Translations under genes and position numbers: made by a program
Source: Pseudooceanicola marinus
GTDB lineage: Bacteria > Pseudomonadota > Alphaproteobacteria > Rhodobacterales > Rhodobacteraceae
Direction of reading: 5' to 3'
Assembly (NCBI RefSeq): GCF_020177265.1
Contig: NZ_JAIVMC010000003.1
Span: 310,001-374,000, forward strand
DNA length: 64,000 nt
Notes under the pieces: model-generated
The model's database searches: none
The model's input: the letters and a program-made list of their open reading frames with translations, nothing else
What the model was told of the DNA's origin: nothing
Part shown: positions 46,782 through 55,532 of the stretch, piece by piece
Layout: each line of letters begins with the position of its first letter
Position numbering within the stretch: position 1 is the first letter of the stretch

Positions 46782-47921
46782 ATGCTGAGACGCCTGCACC
46801 ACGAACAGCCGGAGAGCTTCGCCTTCACCGAGGCGAACATGAAATGGGCCGAAGGCCAGATTTCGAAGTATCCGGAAGGCCGTCAGGCCTCTGCCATCAT
46901 CCCGCTGCTGTGGCGCGCCCAGGAGCAGGAAGGCTGGCTGAGCCAGCCGGCGATCGAATATGTGGCCGACCTTCTGGGCCTGGCCTATATCCGCGCTCTG
47001 GAGGTTGCGACCTTCTACTTCATGTTCCAGCTGCAGCCCACGGGCTCGGTCGCGCATATCCAGATCTGCGGCACCACCACCTGCATGATCTGCGGCGCCG
47101 AGGACCTGATCGGCGTCTGCAAGGAAAAGATTGCGCCCAAGGCGCACGCGCTGTCCGCCGACGGCAAGTTCTCCTGGGAAGAAGTCGAATGTCTGGGCGC
47201 TTGCGCCAACGCGCCGATGGCCCAGATCGGCAAGGACTACTACGAGGATCTGACCGCAGAGGGCCTGGCCAAGCTGCTGGATCAGCTGGCGGCAGGCGAG
47301 GTTCCGACCCCCGGATCCGAGATCGGTCGTTTCTCCTCCGAGCCGGCGGGTGGTCCCGTGGCGTTGAAGCAGTGGGCCGACGACAAGCTGGAGCATAACG
47401 CCTCCGTCGCGCTGGCCGTCGAGCTGGGCGATACCGTCAAGCGGATCGATGGCACCGAAGTGCCAATCCTGACCCCCTGGCTGAACTCCAAGCCGTCGAC
47501 GAAGCCCGAAGGCCCGGCCGAAAAGCCCGTGGTCGAGGAAGAGGCAACGCCCGCGGCCGGCAAGCCCGCAGATGAGACCGGCGTGACCAAGCAGGCCGCC
47601 GAGGCGGAAGCCACCGGCAAGCCCGAACCCGCGATCTCCGCCGAGGCGATCGAAGCGGCGGGCGAGGGCGAGAAGCCCGAGGCGCTGGACGGTCCGCGCG
47701 ACGGCAAGGCCGACAACCTGAAGGAAATCTCCGGCGTCGGGCCGAAGCTGGAAAGCGTGCTGAATGAGATCGGCATCTACCACTTCGACCAGATCGCCGC
47801 CTGGGAGGCGGCACAGGTCGCCTGGGCGGACCAGAACCTGGTCGGCTTCAAGGGCCGGGTCAGCCGTGACGACTGGGTCGGGCAGGCGCAGACGCTGGCC
47901 TCCGGCGACAAGGACAAGTGA
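46782..47921 (+). CDS. nuoE: NADH-quinone oxidoreductase subunit E with C-terminal helix-hairpin-helix-like extension
   Basis: Residues 1-175 are the NuoE (24-kDa) thioredoxin-like domain with the [2Fe-2S] N1a ligands Cys-96, Cys-101 (CGTTTC), Cys-137 and Cys-141 (CLGAC). The full chain is 379 residues, against about 165-240 in most bacteria. Residues 180-310 are a Pro/Glu/Ala/Lys-rich linker. Residues 312-373 ([16 protein letters not shown]...FDQIAAW) form a helix-hairpin-helix domain of the H3TH type (COG3743-like). The same domain ends the next gene's product. An unusual 136-base leader precedes the gene, with no other ORF seen in it. Confidence 0.93.
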
Positions 47922-47929
47922 ACTAGGTC

Positions 47930-48520
47930 ATGGCGATGATGGGCAGCGATCTTTGCAGGACGACGGGGCAGGCGCTTGGCGCCGCTCTGGCGCTTGCGCT
48001 GCTCATCGGTCTGACCGCCCCGCTGGGGTTCCTGGGCGCGCTGGTGCTGGCCGTTCTGGTCGGCGCGGGTCTGATGGTCGGGCTGCAACGCTTCGTCTGC
48101 CAGGGCAGTGCGGGGCAGGGGCCCGTGGCAACCGCCGGAACGCAGGCCGCCGATGCGGTGGCGGCGCCGCGCGGCGAGGTGCAGCCGGGTCTGGCGGCGC
48201 GCAAGGCCCCCGAGGCCGAAGGGATTGCCGCGCCGGTCGCGAAACGCGCGGAGCCGGCCCCGAAAGAGGCCAAGGCGGCGCCGGCCGCTGCCAAGCCCGC
48301 CGCTGCGCCGGATGACCTGCAGCAGCTGAAGGGTGTGGGGCCGAAGCTGGCCGAGGCGCTGGCCGCCGCCGGGATCACCCGGTTCGACCAGATCGCCGCC
48401 TGGACCGAGGCCGACCTGGCCTGGGTCGACGAGAACGTGAAAGGTGCCCGGGGCCGGGCCAGCCGCGATGGCTGGATCGCCCAGGCGCAAGAGCTGTCCG
48501 CCGCCAACGGGGCGGGCTGA
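47930..48520 (+). CDS. Membrane protein with C-terminal helix-hairpin-helix-like domain
   Basis: A 196-residue protein starting 8 bases after nuoE. Residues about 17-50 hold two hydrophobic stretches (ALALALLIGLTAP and LGALVLAVLVGAGLMV), so the N-terminus is a membrane anchor. Residues 60-128 are an Ala/Pro/Lys/Glu linker. Residues 129-190 (KGVGPKLAEALAAAGI...FDQIAAW) align with the NuoE tail at about 34 of 62 positions by eye, including GVGPKL, FDQIAAW, SRD and QAQ. The likely picture is an internal duplication and fusion. A DNA-binding role is not assumed; the domain is also used in protein contacts. Confidence 0.75.
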   Translation: MAMMGSDLCRTTGQALGAALALALLIGLTAPLGFLGALVLAVLVGAGLMVGLQRFVCQGSAGQGPVATAGTQAADAVAAPRGEVQPGLAARKAPEAEGIAAPVAKRAEPAPKEAKAAPAAAKPAAAPDDLQQLKGVGPKLAEALAAAGITRFDQIAAWTEADLAWVDENVKGARGRASRDGWIAQAQELSAANGAG

Positions 48521-48523
48521 GGA

Positions 48524-48760
48524 ATGGAGATGACGGAAGACAGGGCAAAGGATCTGGAGCTGGCCCGCAAGGGGCGCCTGGTGGGCATCGTGATCGCGGT
48601 GACCATGGTGCTCTGGATGGCGCTTCAGGTCGTGGGCGGCCAGCTTGGCCTGCCTGAACGTTTCGTCTTCCTGTTCGATTTTGCCGCCATTGCCGCCTTC
48701 GTCTGGGCGCTGGTGGTGGTGGCGCAGATCTGGCGTGCGCGCCGGGATGACAAAGGGTAA
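48524..48760 (+). CDS. Small two-helix membrane protein, DUF5337-like
   Basis: A 78-residue protein with a charged N-terminus (MTEDRAKDLELARKGR) and two membrane helices (LVGIVIAVTMVLWMALQVV and FVFLFDFAAIAAFVWALVVVAQIW). It resembles the DUF5337 proteins that sit beside nuo genes in Rhodobacteraceae; I name that by memory and it should be confirmed. It begins 3 bases after the previous stop and ends 3 bases before nuoF. Confidence 0.75.
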   Translation: MEMTEDRAKDLELARKGRLVGIVIAVTMVLWMALQVVGGQLGLPERFVFLFDFAAIAAFVWALVVVAQIWRARRDDKG

Positions 48761-48763
48761 GAC

Positions 48764-50065
48764 ATGCTCAAGGATCAGGATCGTATCTTTACCAATCTCT
48801 ACGGCATGAACGACCGCACGCTGAAAGGCGCGCAGGCTCGTGGCCACTGGGATGGCACCGCGGGCATTCTTGCCAACGGGCGCGACTGGATCATCCAGCA
48901 GGTGAAGGACAGCGGGCTGCGCGGCCGTGGCGGCGCGGGCTTCCCCACCGGGCTGAAGTGGTCCTTCATGCCGAAGGAAAGCGACGGACGGCCCGCCTAC
49001 CTGGTGGTCAACGCCGACGAATCCGAACCCGCGACCTGCAAGGACCGCGAGATCATGCGCCACGATCCGCATACGCTGATCGAGGGCTGCCTGATTGCCG
49101 GTTTCGCCATGGGCGCGGTTGCCGCCTACATCTACATCCGCGGCGAATACATCCGCGAGAAGGAAGCCCTGCAGGCGGCCATCGACGAGGCCTACGAGGC
49201 CGGTCTGATCGGCAAGAACGCCAGCAAGTCGGGCTATGACTTCGACATCTACCTGCACCACGGGGCAGGGGCCTACATCTGCGGCGAAGAGACGGCGCTG
49301 ATCGAAAGCCTGGAAGGCAAGAAGGGCATGCCCCGGATGAAGCCGCCGTTCCCGGCCGGGGCCGGCCTCTACGGCTGCCCGACCACGGTGAACAACGTCG
49401 AATCCATCGCCGTCGTGCCGACCATCCTGCGCCGCGGCCCGGAATGGTTCAGCAGCTTCGGCCGTCCGAACAACGCGGGCACCAAGCTGATGGCGCTGAC
49501 CGGTCACGTGAACACGCCCTGCGTCTTCGAAGAACAGATGTCGCTGTCGGTGCGTGAGATCATCGAGACCCACGGCGGCGGCATTCGCGGCGGCTGGGAC
49601 AACCTGAAGGCCATCATCCCCGGTGGTGCCTCCTGCCCGGTTCTGCCGAAGGAGAAGCTGGAAGACGCGATCTTCGACTTCGACTGGATGCGTCAGAACC
49701 AGTCCAGCTTCGGCACCGGCTGCATGATCGTTATGGACAACTCCGTCGACGTGGTGAAAGCCGTGTGGCGCCTGGCCAAGTTCTTCAAGCATGAGAGCTG
49801 CGGCCAGTGCACGCCCTGCCGCGAAGGCACCGGCTGGATGATGCGCGTCATGGATCGCCTGGTCACGGGCGAGGCCGAGCCGGAAGAGATCGACATGCTG
49901 CTGGATGTGACCAAGCAGGTCGAGGGCCACACCATCTGCGCCCTGGGCGACGCGGCTGCCTGGCCGATCCAGGGCCTTATCCGTCACTTCCGCGACGAGA
50001 TCGAGGACCGGATCAAGCGCCAGAAGACCGGCCGGTCCGCCACCATCCTGACCGCGGCGGAGTGA
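48764..50065 (+). CDS. nuoF: NADH-quinone oxidoreductase subunit F
   Basis: A 433-residue 51-kDa-type subunit that binds FMN and NADH and cluster N3. [16 protein letters not shown] (51-66) is the NADH/FMN site, [16 protein letters not shown] binds FMN, and [15 protein letters not shown] plus HTICALGD carry the four cluster Cys. Length is normal. It starts 3 bases after the DUF5337-like gene with AAAGGG-type ribosome site. Confidence 0.98.
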
Positions 50066-50069
50066 TCGC

Positions 50070-50444
50070 ATGATGACGCTGTCCGCCTCCAAGATCGCGA
50101 CCCGGCTGGCTCTCGTGGCCTGCGTCGGGCTGAGCCTGAGCGCCTGCTCGCGGCTGACCCCCTGGGCCAGCAGCAACCGTCCGGTGTTCGACGGGCAGTA
50201 CTTCCGCGCCAAGGTGGCCTTCGAGAAGGAGGCCCCTGCGGCCTTCACCGTCACCGTGCGCGATCCGGGCAAGAGCCTGGCCGGCGCGCGCGAGGCGGGA
50301 CGCCTGGAGGCGACCACCCACTGCATCGCGTACTTCGGTGACAGCCGGATCGAATGGGGCGCCAGCAATCCTGATGCCGAGGAGGGCGCGCTGCTCTTCC
50401 AGGACGGGTCGCTGGTCATGGCCGGAACCTGCCGCGGATGGTGA
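50070..50444 (+). CDS. Lipoprotein in nuo operon (124 residues)
   Basis: Four bases after nuoF. Signal sequence with lipobox LSAC and lipidated Cys-26. The mature domain contains VFDGQYFRAKVAFEKEAPAAFTVTVRD, a Cys in TTHCIAYFGDSRIEW and another in AGTCRGW near the end, so a disulfide is plausible. Family not recognised. No membrane helix other than the signal. Confidence 0.75.
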   Translation: MMTLSASKIATRLALVACVGLSLSACSRLTPWASSNRPVFDGQYFRAKVAFEKEAPAAFTVTVRDPGKSLAGAREAGRLEATTHCIAYFGDSRIEWGASNPDAEEGALLFQDGSLVMAGTCRGW

Positions 50445-51091: not shown

Positions 51092-53107
51092 ATGTCTGAC
51101 CTTCGCAAGATCATCATCGACGACCAGGAGATCGAGGTCGATCCGGCCCTGACGCTGCTGCAGGCCTGTGAACAGGCCGGGATCGAGGTGCCGCGCTTCT
51201 GCTACCACGAACGTCTGTCCATCGCCGGCAACTGCCGCATGTGCCTGGTCGAGGTTGTCGGCGGCCCGCCGAAGCCCGCCGCCTCCTGCGCGATGCAGGT
51301 CAAGGACATGCGCCCCGGCCCCGACGGCGCGCCGCCGGTCATCAAGACCACTTCGCCGATGGTGAAGAAGGCGCGCGAAGGCGTGATGGAATTCCTGCTG
51401 ATCAACCACCCGCTGGATTGCCCGATCTGCGACCAGGGCGGTGAATGCGACCTGCAGGACCAGGCCATGGCCTATGGCGTCGACTTCTCCCGCTACCGCG
51501 AGGCGAAGCGCGCGACCGACGACCTGGACCTGGGCCCGCTGGTCGAAACCCACATGACCCGCTGCATCTCCTGCACCCGTTGCGTGCGCTTCACGACCGA
51601 GGTCGCGGGTATCAGCCAGATGGGCCAGACCGGGCGCGGCGAAGATGCCGAGATCACCAGCTACCTGAACGAGACGCTGAACTCGAACCTGCAGGGCAAC
51701 ATCATCGACCTGTGCCCCGTGGGCGCGCTGGTGTCGAAACCCTACAGCTTCACCGCCCGCCCCTGGGAACTGACCAAGACCGAGAGCATCGACGTGATGG
51801 ATGCGCTCGGGTCCAGCATCCGCGTGGACACCAAGGGCCGCGAAGTCATGCGCTTCCTGCCGCGCAACCATGACGGCGTGAACGAGGAATGGATTTCCGA
51901 CAAGACGCGCTTCGTCTGGGACGGCCTGCGCCGTCAGCGTCTCGACCGGCCCTACGTGCGCGTCGACGGCAAGCTGAAGCCTGCCACCTGGCCCGAGGCG
52001 CTGGCCGCTGCGGCGAGTGCGATGAAGGGCAAGAAGGTCATGGGCCTGGTCGGTGACCTGGCCTCCACCGAGGCGGCCTTCGCCCTGAAGGAACTGGTGA
52101 CCAGCCTGGGTGGCGAGGTGGAATGCCGCGTCGATGACGCCAAGCTGCCCGCCGGCAACCGCTCGGCCTATGTCGGCACGGCCAAGATCGAGGATCTGGA
52201 CCACGCCAAGAACGTGTTCCTCGTCGGCACCAACCCCGCCGTCGAGGCGCCGGTGCTGAACGCCCGGATCCGCAAGGCCTGGCTTAAGGGCGCGACCGTG
52301 ACGATGATCGGCGAAGATGCCGACCTGACCTACGATCACGTCCATGCCGGTGACGGCCGCGCCGCCCTGACCGATGCCGCCAAGGATGTGTCGGACGAGG
52401 TGAAGGACGCACCGTCGGTCGTCGTCGTGGGGCAGGGCGCTCTGACCGCCGAGGATGGCGCCGACGTTCTGGCCGCCGCCCAGGCACTGGCCGAGGCCAC
52501 CGGCTCGAAATTCATGGTCTTGCACACCGCCGCCTCGCGCGTCGGTGCGATGGACCTGGGCGCCGTCTCGGAAGGGGGCATCGCCTATGCCGCTTCCGCC
52601 GAGGTGGTCTACAACCTTGGCGCCGACGAGATCGAGATCCCCGAGGGACCCTTCGTGATCTACCAGGGCAGCCATGGCGACCGTGGCGCACACCGCGCCG
52701 ACGTGATCCTGCCGGGCGCGGCCTACACCGAGGAAAACGGCCTGTTCGTGAACACCGAAGGTCGTCCCCAGCTGGCGATGCGCGCGGGCTTCGCCCCCGG
52801 CGACGCCAAGGAAAACTGGGCGATCCTGCGGGCCCTGTCCGCCGAGCTGGACGCAACGCTGCCCTTCGACAGCCTTGCGCAGCTGCGCCAGAAGCTGGTC
52901 GCGGCAGTGCCGCACCTGGCCAAGATCGACCAGGTGCCGGAAAACGACTGGACCCCGGTCAGCGGCAAGGCCCTGGGCAGCGCGCCCTTCGGCTCGCCCA
53001 TCCGCGACTTCTACCTGACCAACCCGATCGCCCGTGCGTCGGAAGTCATGGCGGAACTGTCGAAGATGGCCGCGGACCGCGCCGCTGCGCCGATGGCGGC
53101 CGAATGA
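51092..53107 (+). CDS. nuoG: NADH-quinone oxidoreductase subunit G
   Basis: A 671-residue 75-kDa-type subunit. The [2Fe-2S] ligands are in [15 protein letters not shown], the His-liganded [4Fe-4S] in [16 protein letters not shown], and the third cluster in [12 protein letters not shown] with a later [12 protein letters not shown]. The C-terminal molybdopterin-oxidoreductase-like domain is present and lacks cofactor motifs as usual. Size is typical of alphaproteobacterial NuoG. The next gene starts within its stop codon. Confidence 0.97.
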
Positions 53108-53541
53108 AAGTTTCCGCGATCATAGGTTCCGGGGCCCTTGCGGTCCTCAGCGGGTGCGGCACGCCCTGCGCCGGTCCGGAGGGCAGCTGCACGTCGCAGC
53201 CCGCCACCCGTGCCGCGCAGATGCCTGCCGCCGCGCTGGCCTATGACGGGATTGAGACCCGCCTTCTGGATGGGGACCTGGTGAATTTCCATGTCTCCAT
53301 GCGGGGGGCGCGCGGGCCCGAGGATGTCTCGGACTACGCGGAATGTGCGGCGGCGCAGTATGCGCTGATCCGCGGCTACGGATTTGCAAGACATCTGCGC
53401 ACAAATGTCGCCGAGGTCTCTGGTCACTGGGAAGCAGATGCGGTTTATACCGTCTCGGCAGCCCTGCCCGAGGGTTTGCGCACGATCGATGCGGAAGTTG
53501 TCGCTGCGCATTGCGCGGAAAACGGAATACCGACGGTGTGA
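53104..53541 (+). CDS. Lipoprotein in nuo operon (145 residues)
   Basis: ATGA overlap with nuoG. A short signal sequence ends in lipobox LSGC (Cys-18), followed by [11 protein letters not shown], three close Cys after processing. The body ([27 protein letters not shown]...[23 protein letters not shown]) is mixed alpha/beta and unlike known subunits. Base composition after about 53360 is less GC-rich (GATTTGC, AAATG). Family not recognised. Confidence 0.7.
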
Positions 53542-55124: not shown

Positions 55125-55532
55125 GTGGCTGACTCCCAGAACCCGTTCGAGATGTTCATCCGGCATGCCCAGGACATGGCGAAGTCCATGAACCCGGCGC
55201 TGGAGAGCTTCACCCCCAAGGGGTTCGAGGCGCTCTGGCCTACGATGCCCAAGGAATGGATGGAGTTCGCCTTCGGCAACACCGTCAACAAGGATGGGCT
55301 GGACGCCAAGACCCGCCTGTTCCTGACCCTCGCGGGTCTGACCATGCAGGGCGCACAGGCCGAGAGCCAGCTGCGCGTCACCGTGCGCCACCTTCTGGAG
55401 GCGGGCGCGAAGAAACAAGAAATCGCCGAGGCCATCGCACAGATGTCGATGTTCGCCGGTATTCCCGCCATGACCAAGGCCGCCCAACTGGCGAAAGAGG
55501 TCATGGACGAGCAAGAGGATGATGAGACATGA
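55125..55532 (+). CDS. Carboxymuconolactone-decarboxylase-like protein without cysteines
   Basis: A 135-residue protein whose second half ([53 protein letters not shown]) has the AhpD/CMD fold sequence pattern. It contains no Cys at all, so the CxxC of peroxidase-type members is missing and no redox role is possible by that route. The start is GTG at 55125 behind GGAAGGGGGG. It overlaps nuoJ by ATGA. Its place between nuoI and nuoJ suggests a complex I-linked or structural role, unproven. Confidence 0.8.

Follow-up and report, generated by a model that had tools for sequence, protein, structure and literature searches.

The complex I (nuo) operon in a 64,000-nucleotide stretch of the Pseudooceanicola marinus genome (positions 310,001 to 374,000 of contig NZ_JAIVMC010000003.1, in its entirety referred to as the window) encodes a NuoE of 379 amino acids that ends in a helix-hairpin-helix (HhH) module. 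The gene directly downstream encodes a 196-amino-acid protein that carries the same module at its C terminus. Both open reading frames (ORFs) are intact, and the gaps between nuoE, the 196-amino-acid gene, a DUF5337 gene, and nuoF are 8, 3, and 3 bp, respectively. The first-pass annotation did not recognize that the homologue of this neighboring protein is a solved subunit of the photosynthetic reaction center-light-harvesting 1 (RC-LH1) complex, protein-O. The features of the locus, in window coordinates, are as follows.

46782..47921, + strand: nuoE, complex I subunit E, with a thioredoxin-like [2Fe-2S] part, a Pro/Ala/Glu/Lys-rich linker, and a C-terminal HhH (PF01257, 172 bits; NF009040, 558.3 bits against a cut-off of 514)
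47622..47711, + strand: NuoE residues 281 to 310, predicted ordered lead-in to the HhH with a short helix at 287 to 292 (AlphaFold2 prediction, block means 87 to 94)
47712..47909, + strand: NuoE HhH module, residues 311 to 376 (BLASTP against the neighbor; block means 89 to 97 up to residue 370 and 73 for residues 371 to 379)
47930..48520, + strand: protein-O-like gene, 196 amino acids, with membrane hairpin, Ala/Pro-rich linker, and HhH (C terminus matches 8yy9_O, E value 7.5e-22; locus as in Dinoroseobacter shibae)
47954..48100, + strand: hydrophobic hairpin region of the neighbor, Cys9 to Cys57 (alignment; in D. shibae, Cys10 and Cys59 at the aligned positions form a disulfide, PMC12079452)
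48101..48310, + strand: linker of the neighbor, predicted disordered (block means 50 to 63 for residues 61 to 120)
48311..48508, + strand: HhH module of the neighbor, residues 128 to 193 (BLASTP; PF14520, 30.7 bits)
48524..48760, + strand: DUF5337 small hydrophobic protein, 78 amino acids, between the protein-O-like gene and nuoF (PF17272, 115.9 bits)
48764..50065, + strand: nuoF, the downstream anchor of the locus (ORF)

The first-pass annotation had matched NuoE residues 312 to 373 with residues 129 to 190 of the neighbor by eye, and this match held up. BLASTP aligned NuoE residues 311 to 376 with neighbor residues 128 to 193 without gaps (34/66 identical, 46/66 similar; E value, 3e-25), and the listed motifs GVGPKL, FDQIAAW, SRD, and QAQ are all present in both tails. 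The linkers are as rich in Pro, Ala, Glu, and Lys as had been described (66% in NuoE and 69% in the neighbor, at about residues 61 to 127), and the membrane anchor assigned to the neighbor is supported as a prediction, the hydrophobicity test having been passed. The Pfam model HHH_5 (PF14520; cut-off, 27 bits) recognized the neighbor at 30.7 bits, and NuoE fell below the cut-off with 13.9 bits for the whole protein and 17.5 bits for the tail alone. Full-length NuoE passed NF009040 (PRK12373), the long-form NuoE family that includes the tail, as a member from which no difference was found. Both C termini were modeled with high confidence (block means, 87 to 97 for NuoE residues 281 to 370 and 94 to 97 for neighbor residues 131 to 190), and fold comparison predicted that the HhH copy of the neighbor is a complete unit of the RadA/NusA-AR2 type.

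No solved NuoE chain with a long tail turned up in the Protein Data Bank (PDB) searches. The closest was NuoE of the solved complex I of Paracoccus denitrificans, which has 239 residues, aligns only to residue 236 of the window NuoE, and has no tail. When the NuoE model was compared with known folds, the best 50 rows listed NuoE and complex I chains plus one related chain of NfnC, with no row matching the tail, and a PDB search with the NuoE tail alone returned no NuoE chain.

The module is not private to this pair. A third copy is found on ribosomal protein L21 of the same genome, whose NusA is a weak fourth match (E value, 0.02), and the NCBIfam models of L21 (NF008915/NF008916), S2 (NF008966), and the phasin PhaH (NF045508) match the same module, with matches that extend into the preceding linker although the carriers differ. 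With regard to COG3743, which the first-pass annotation had named, some relatives bear the source label "predicted flap endonuclease-1-like." In the fold comparison, HhH domains of RadA and of DNA polymerase were matched. One explanation is that the tails, like the HhH domains of repair proteins, bind nucleic acid and fasten both the hairpin protein and complex I to RNA or the nucleoid. These fold matches, the GVGPKL-type hairpin, and the presence of the module on L21 (and on S2, by its NCBIfam model) are in line with this. However, both kinds of tail are acidic, with a mean net charge of −2.0 over 164 NuoE tails and −1.1 over 124 protein-O tails, and 6ib8, the NusA AR2 relative among the fold matches, is a complex of proteins. 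The NusA AR2 and RadA/Rad51 N-terminal domains are 28 to 33% identical to the module, and a common fold proves no function. Nucleic acid binding is thus considered improbable.

Protein-O was published in 2025 as a reaction center subunit of unknown function in the RC-LH1 complex of D. shibae (PMC12079452). The same paper places its gene between nuoE and nuoF, reports the HhH that it has in common with NuoE, and describes a structure in which the periplasmic end of the hairpin contacts the L subunit of the reaction center (RC-L) and Cys10 and Cys59 form a disulfide. The window gene likely belongs to the protein-O family, judged by locus and plan. It too sits between nuoE and nuoF (47930 to 48520), its C-terminal HhH is homologous to that of 8yy9_O, and its N-terminal hydrophobic hairpin has a cysteine at each end (Cys9 and Cys57), which by analogy may form a disulfide; the turn of the hairpin was not resolved in the predicted model. 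The flexible linker is a further likeness to D. shibae protein-O (8yy9, 8yz2, 9jpb, and 9km0; PMC12079452), the hairpin of which has also been deposited as "Protein LRC" (9lts and 9ltv). In contrast, the hairpins show no clear similarity in sequence, the window protein lacks a GWSFLQGAF-type tip, and its HhH has a higher mean identity to L21 tails (60%, nine L21 copies) than to NuoE tails (50%). No match to PF00124 (Photo_RC) was found in the 98.8% complete genome, and the neighbor was therefore filed as a relative of protein-O rather than as an RC-LH1 subunit. The closest named relative of the 196-amino-acid protein, with 88% identity, was from Pseudooceanicola marinus.

A second reaction center structure with protein-O appears to be 9wqv, despite the complex I name of its chain a ("NADH:ubiquinone oxidoreductase 41 kd complex i subunit," 229 amino acids). 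The C-terminal HhH of this chain matches that of the neighbor (E value, 1.7e-18), its hairpin and HhH align with D. shibae-like protein-O, and the entry also contains a reaction center M chain. In neither the NuoE nor the NuoH PDB match tables was 9wqv seen as such a chain.

Protein-O and the domain that it has in common with NuoE were already known; the survey of 177 resolved Rhodobacterales loci is new, and no survey of protein-O in non-phototrophs was found in the searches made of open-access papers. The nuoE-nuoF interval was classified in 179 of the 292 genomes of the order, the other 113 being outside the sample. The classified genomes comprised 131 (the window's own and 130 from among the best-scoring NuoE matches listed) and 48 taken from 70 lower-scoring genomes, and the tail-bearing share of the sample is not an estimate because tail-less cases were chosen deliberately among these 48. 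Two genomes with no visible nuoF (G003 and G084) were excluded from the tests. In G003, a phototroph (locus L080), there was no nuoF within 1.9 kb after nuoE, and the operon looks interrupted. Across the order, NuoE scored above the NF009040 cut-off in 258/292 genomes, and 118/292 had reaction center genes. Outside the order, none of 140 alphaproteobacterial genomes passed this cut-off, and at least 4 of the 140 (G330, G425, G426, and G430) had NuoE and the module in one frame.

A protein-O-like gene was present in 66 of 73 phototrophs versus 58 of 104 genomes without reaction center genes, the window's own included (P = 3.6e-7, kinship ignored). The first HhH gene of the interval has an N-terminal hydrophobic hairpin in 124 of 124 loci, by a test that was passed by 70 of 1,074 other long frames and by none of 179 NuoE stretches. 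A cysteine pair 42 to 52 residues apart was found in 84 of the 124 copies (39/66 from phototrophs and 45/58 from others). Seven loci, all from phototrophs (L036, L085, L095, L115, L118, L139, and L178), had one more HhH gene in the nuoE-nuoF interval, which in several cases bears little visible resemblance to the hairpin in its N-terminal part. A linker motif near PLPGEAELAxRKGxWxY was seen by eye to recur among proteins of the protein-O-like kind (L003, L133, L147, P0036, P0041, and P0046), also in hairpin genes without an HhH.

The first-pass annotation had suggested that the two tails dimerize or bind a common partner. The common-partner option gained support, whereas the idea that the tails exist for each other did not. 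Of the 162 loci with the NuoE tail, 114 had the neighboring gene, as did 10 of the 15 loci without the tail (P = 0.77; 177 loci, no phylogenetic model), so that 48 resolved loci had the tail without the gene and 10 had the gene without the tail. Selection on the tails was estimated as the ratio of nonsynonymous (dN) to synonymous (dS) divergence (omega) by the Nei-Gojobori method in within-genus pairs with dS of 0.1 to 1.0 only, many pairs beyond this range being saturated. In genomes without the gene, the NuoE tail had a median omega of 0.08 (13 pairs; highest, 0.17), and in genomes with the gene it had a median of 0.165 (14 pairs; highest, 0.53, for the window's genome and a congener). This shows that the long NuoE tail of most Rhodobacterales is conserved on its own account.

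Direct binding of the NuoE tail to the tail of its neighbor would tether complex I to the hairpin and, in phototrophs, to RC-LH1. The same domain on adjacent, closely spaced genes is what such binding might look like, and the tails of one genome resemble each other more than expected (see below). Yet the gene and the tail are independent of each other, gene-less NuoE tails are under strong purifying selection, and obligate pairing is thus not supported. The further copy on L21 and the prediction that each copy folds alone, the HhH of the neighbor being complete in itself, also argue against tails made for each other. The independence of tail and gene rules out a direct heterodimer as the obligate cause of the pair, and occasional pairing may still occur; as an explanation of the locus, direct binding seems improbable.

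NuoE and protein-O tails were 68.0% identical within a genome and 64.6% identical across genomes. The centered within-genome excess was 0.033, with a permutation standard deviation of 0.004, and none of 5,000 permutations gave one as large. Across genomes, NuoE tails were 66.7% identical to each other and protein-O tails were 64.8% identical to each other. Fourfold sites agreed at 44% within versus 40% across genomes, a difference that may be due to shared codon use. Near-identical DNA was found in 1 of 114 genomes only (G216, 90%), and recent gene conversion was therefore rejected as the whole cause of the within-genome likeness. It seems from these comparisons that the tail copies have been exchanged or held alike now and then. 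If the two sequences are interchangeable, one reader for both would be expected rather than two complementary faces.

It is also conceivable that the module has no specific partner and is a mobile, well-folded cap copied between neighboring genes and L21. When 304 domains were placed in a tree, at least 49 changes of carrier (NuoE, protein-O, L21, or a further HhH gene) were required, compared with a mean of 109 after the labels had been shuffled; the count is partly due to the short alignment and weak node support. The 90% DNA identity between both copies in one genome and the L21-like appearance of the neighbor's copy are further points in favor of a mobile cap. Nevertheless, purifying selection was evident in four groups of pairs (median omega, 0.08 to 0.21), and 48 loci retain the NuoE tail without an adjacent copy as a source. 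A mobile cap with no specific partner appears unlikely. L21 was not accepted as the sure source of the neighbor's HhH, which is 52% identical to L21 and 51% identical to the NuoE tail of the same genome and falls in a mixed cluster of the tree (support, 0.52 to 0.90).

The HhH of protein-O had a median omega of 0.205 in non-phototrophs (18 pairs; highest, 0.80) and 0.14 in phototrophs (19 pairs; highest, 0.42). The hairpin had higher values, with medians of 0.57 over 15 non-phototroph pairs and 0.52 over 11 phototroph pairs. Seven of the non-phototroph hairpin pairs, from five genera, had omega values of 0.06 to 0.33, and the other eight, seven of them from one diverged genus, had values of 0.57 to 1.24. 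When the window gene was compared with that of Pseudooceanicola marinus, dN was 0 at a dS of 0.17 in the HhH, and dN was 0.046 at a dS of 0.139 in the hairpin. These values indicate that the gene is kept in genomes without reaction center genes and that the hairpin is kept less tightly.

These results bear on whether the neighbor might be a decaying relic, a reaction center subunit left behind after the loss of photosynthesis. The gene is commoner in phototrophs, some hairpin pairs have omega values near 1, six genomes that lack reaction center genes and were scored as gene-less carry at that position a hairpin gene in which no HhH was found, and a glutamine at the hairpin tip (see below) is missing from all non-phototroph copies; all of this would be compatible with decay. 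However, the HhH is conserved in genomes without reaction center genes, hairpin pairs from five genera have low omega values, and the comparison with Pseudooceanicola marinus found no nonsynonymous change in the HhH. Retention argues in the same direction. With mixed and phototroph-free genera defined on classified genomes alone, the six mixed genera with the gene in both groups kept it in 16 of 16 resolved members without reaction center genes (G084 could not be placed), the single such member of a seventh mixed genus lacked it, giving 16/17, and the gene was kept in 26 of 44 genera without any classified phototroph. A relic is therefore regarded as quite unlikely.

When the hairpins were aligned, phototrophs and others diverged at the turn, which reads GWSFLQGAF in D. 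shibae. In the D. shibae structure it is with its periplasmic end that the hairpin contacts RC-L (PMC12079452), so that the turn is the expected site of reaction center contact, and the glutamine at the tip might itself make this contact. This glutamine was present in 29 of 66 phototroph copies versus none of 58 others, with genus-weighted frequencies of 0.44 and 0, and it ranked second among the 175 residue tests made (raw P = 2e-5). Two mixed genera only were informative (5/5 versus 0/1 in g8 and 3/3 versus 0/7 in g3), and in four other mixed genera the glutamine was found in neither group. It was commoner in phototrophs without PufX (23/37) than in those with PufX (6/29; P = 0.001 by genomes and 0.056 by genera). 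PufX as a strict alternative to protein-O was rejected: six of the seven gene-less phototrophs have PufX, but so do 29 of the 66 gene-bearing ones (P = 0.05). Two observations speak against too strict an interpretation of this residue. The glutamine is absent from 37 of the 66 phototroph copies, and it is also absent from the protein-O-like chain of 9wqv, where a gap is aligned; 9wqv being a reaction center entry, the residue is weakened as a marker of binding.

What has been shown is that the two proteins share a domain, that the hydrophobic stretch has a cysteine at either end, that the gene lies within the operon, that nothing in the genome matches Photo_RC, that tail and gene occur independently of each other, and that both tails are under purifying selection. 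We tentatively favor the proposal, held with less than even confidence, that the neighbor is a membrane anchor of the protein-O family and that one cytosolic partner binds both its HhH tail and that of NuoE. The tails on their flexible linkers would be docking tags, one on complex I and one on the membrane hairpin protein. A single cytosolic partner may read both, which could be why the two copies stay interchangeable. The module would then be complete in itself, a docking unit for proteins of the NusA-AR2/RadA type, and not half of a heterodimer. The hairpin might be the part that docks to a membrane complex, with a periplasmic tip that would be fitted to the reaction center in many phototrophs, those lacking PufX more often than the rest. 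Elsewhere it may be seated on another complex, for which complex I is the obvious candidate because of the operon position.

A more far-reaching version, which is speculative and decidedly unlikely, is that protein-O is fundamentally an accessory protein of respiration, belonging to the complex I operon, and was recruited into RC-LH1 by phototrophic Rhodobacterales, the tails being matching tags for one adaptor. If so, the adaptor in phototrophs would bring the reaction center, which makes quinol in the light, beside a complex I able to run backwards from quinol to NADH, and genomes without reaction center genes, the window's own included, would retain the older respiratory form.

Since 58 of 104 genomes without reaction center genes keep the gene in the complex I operon and the tip residue is found in phototrophs only, the question of what protein-O does shifts from photosynthesis to respiration, and its role becomes testable in non-phototrophic strains.

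Several other genes of the locus deserve mention. In most of the loci without protein-O in which ORFs were viewed, DUF5337-like ORFs (by eye) lie directly before nuoF. Farther downstream in the window, small ORFs before nuoG (50070 to 50444) and before nuoH (53104 to 53541) begin like lipoproteins or secreted proteins and gave no match in Pfam, and a carboxymuconolactone decarboxylase family protein (PF02627, 56 bits; 55125 to 55532) is encoded between nuoI and nuoJ.
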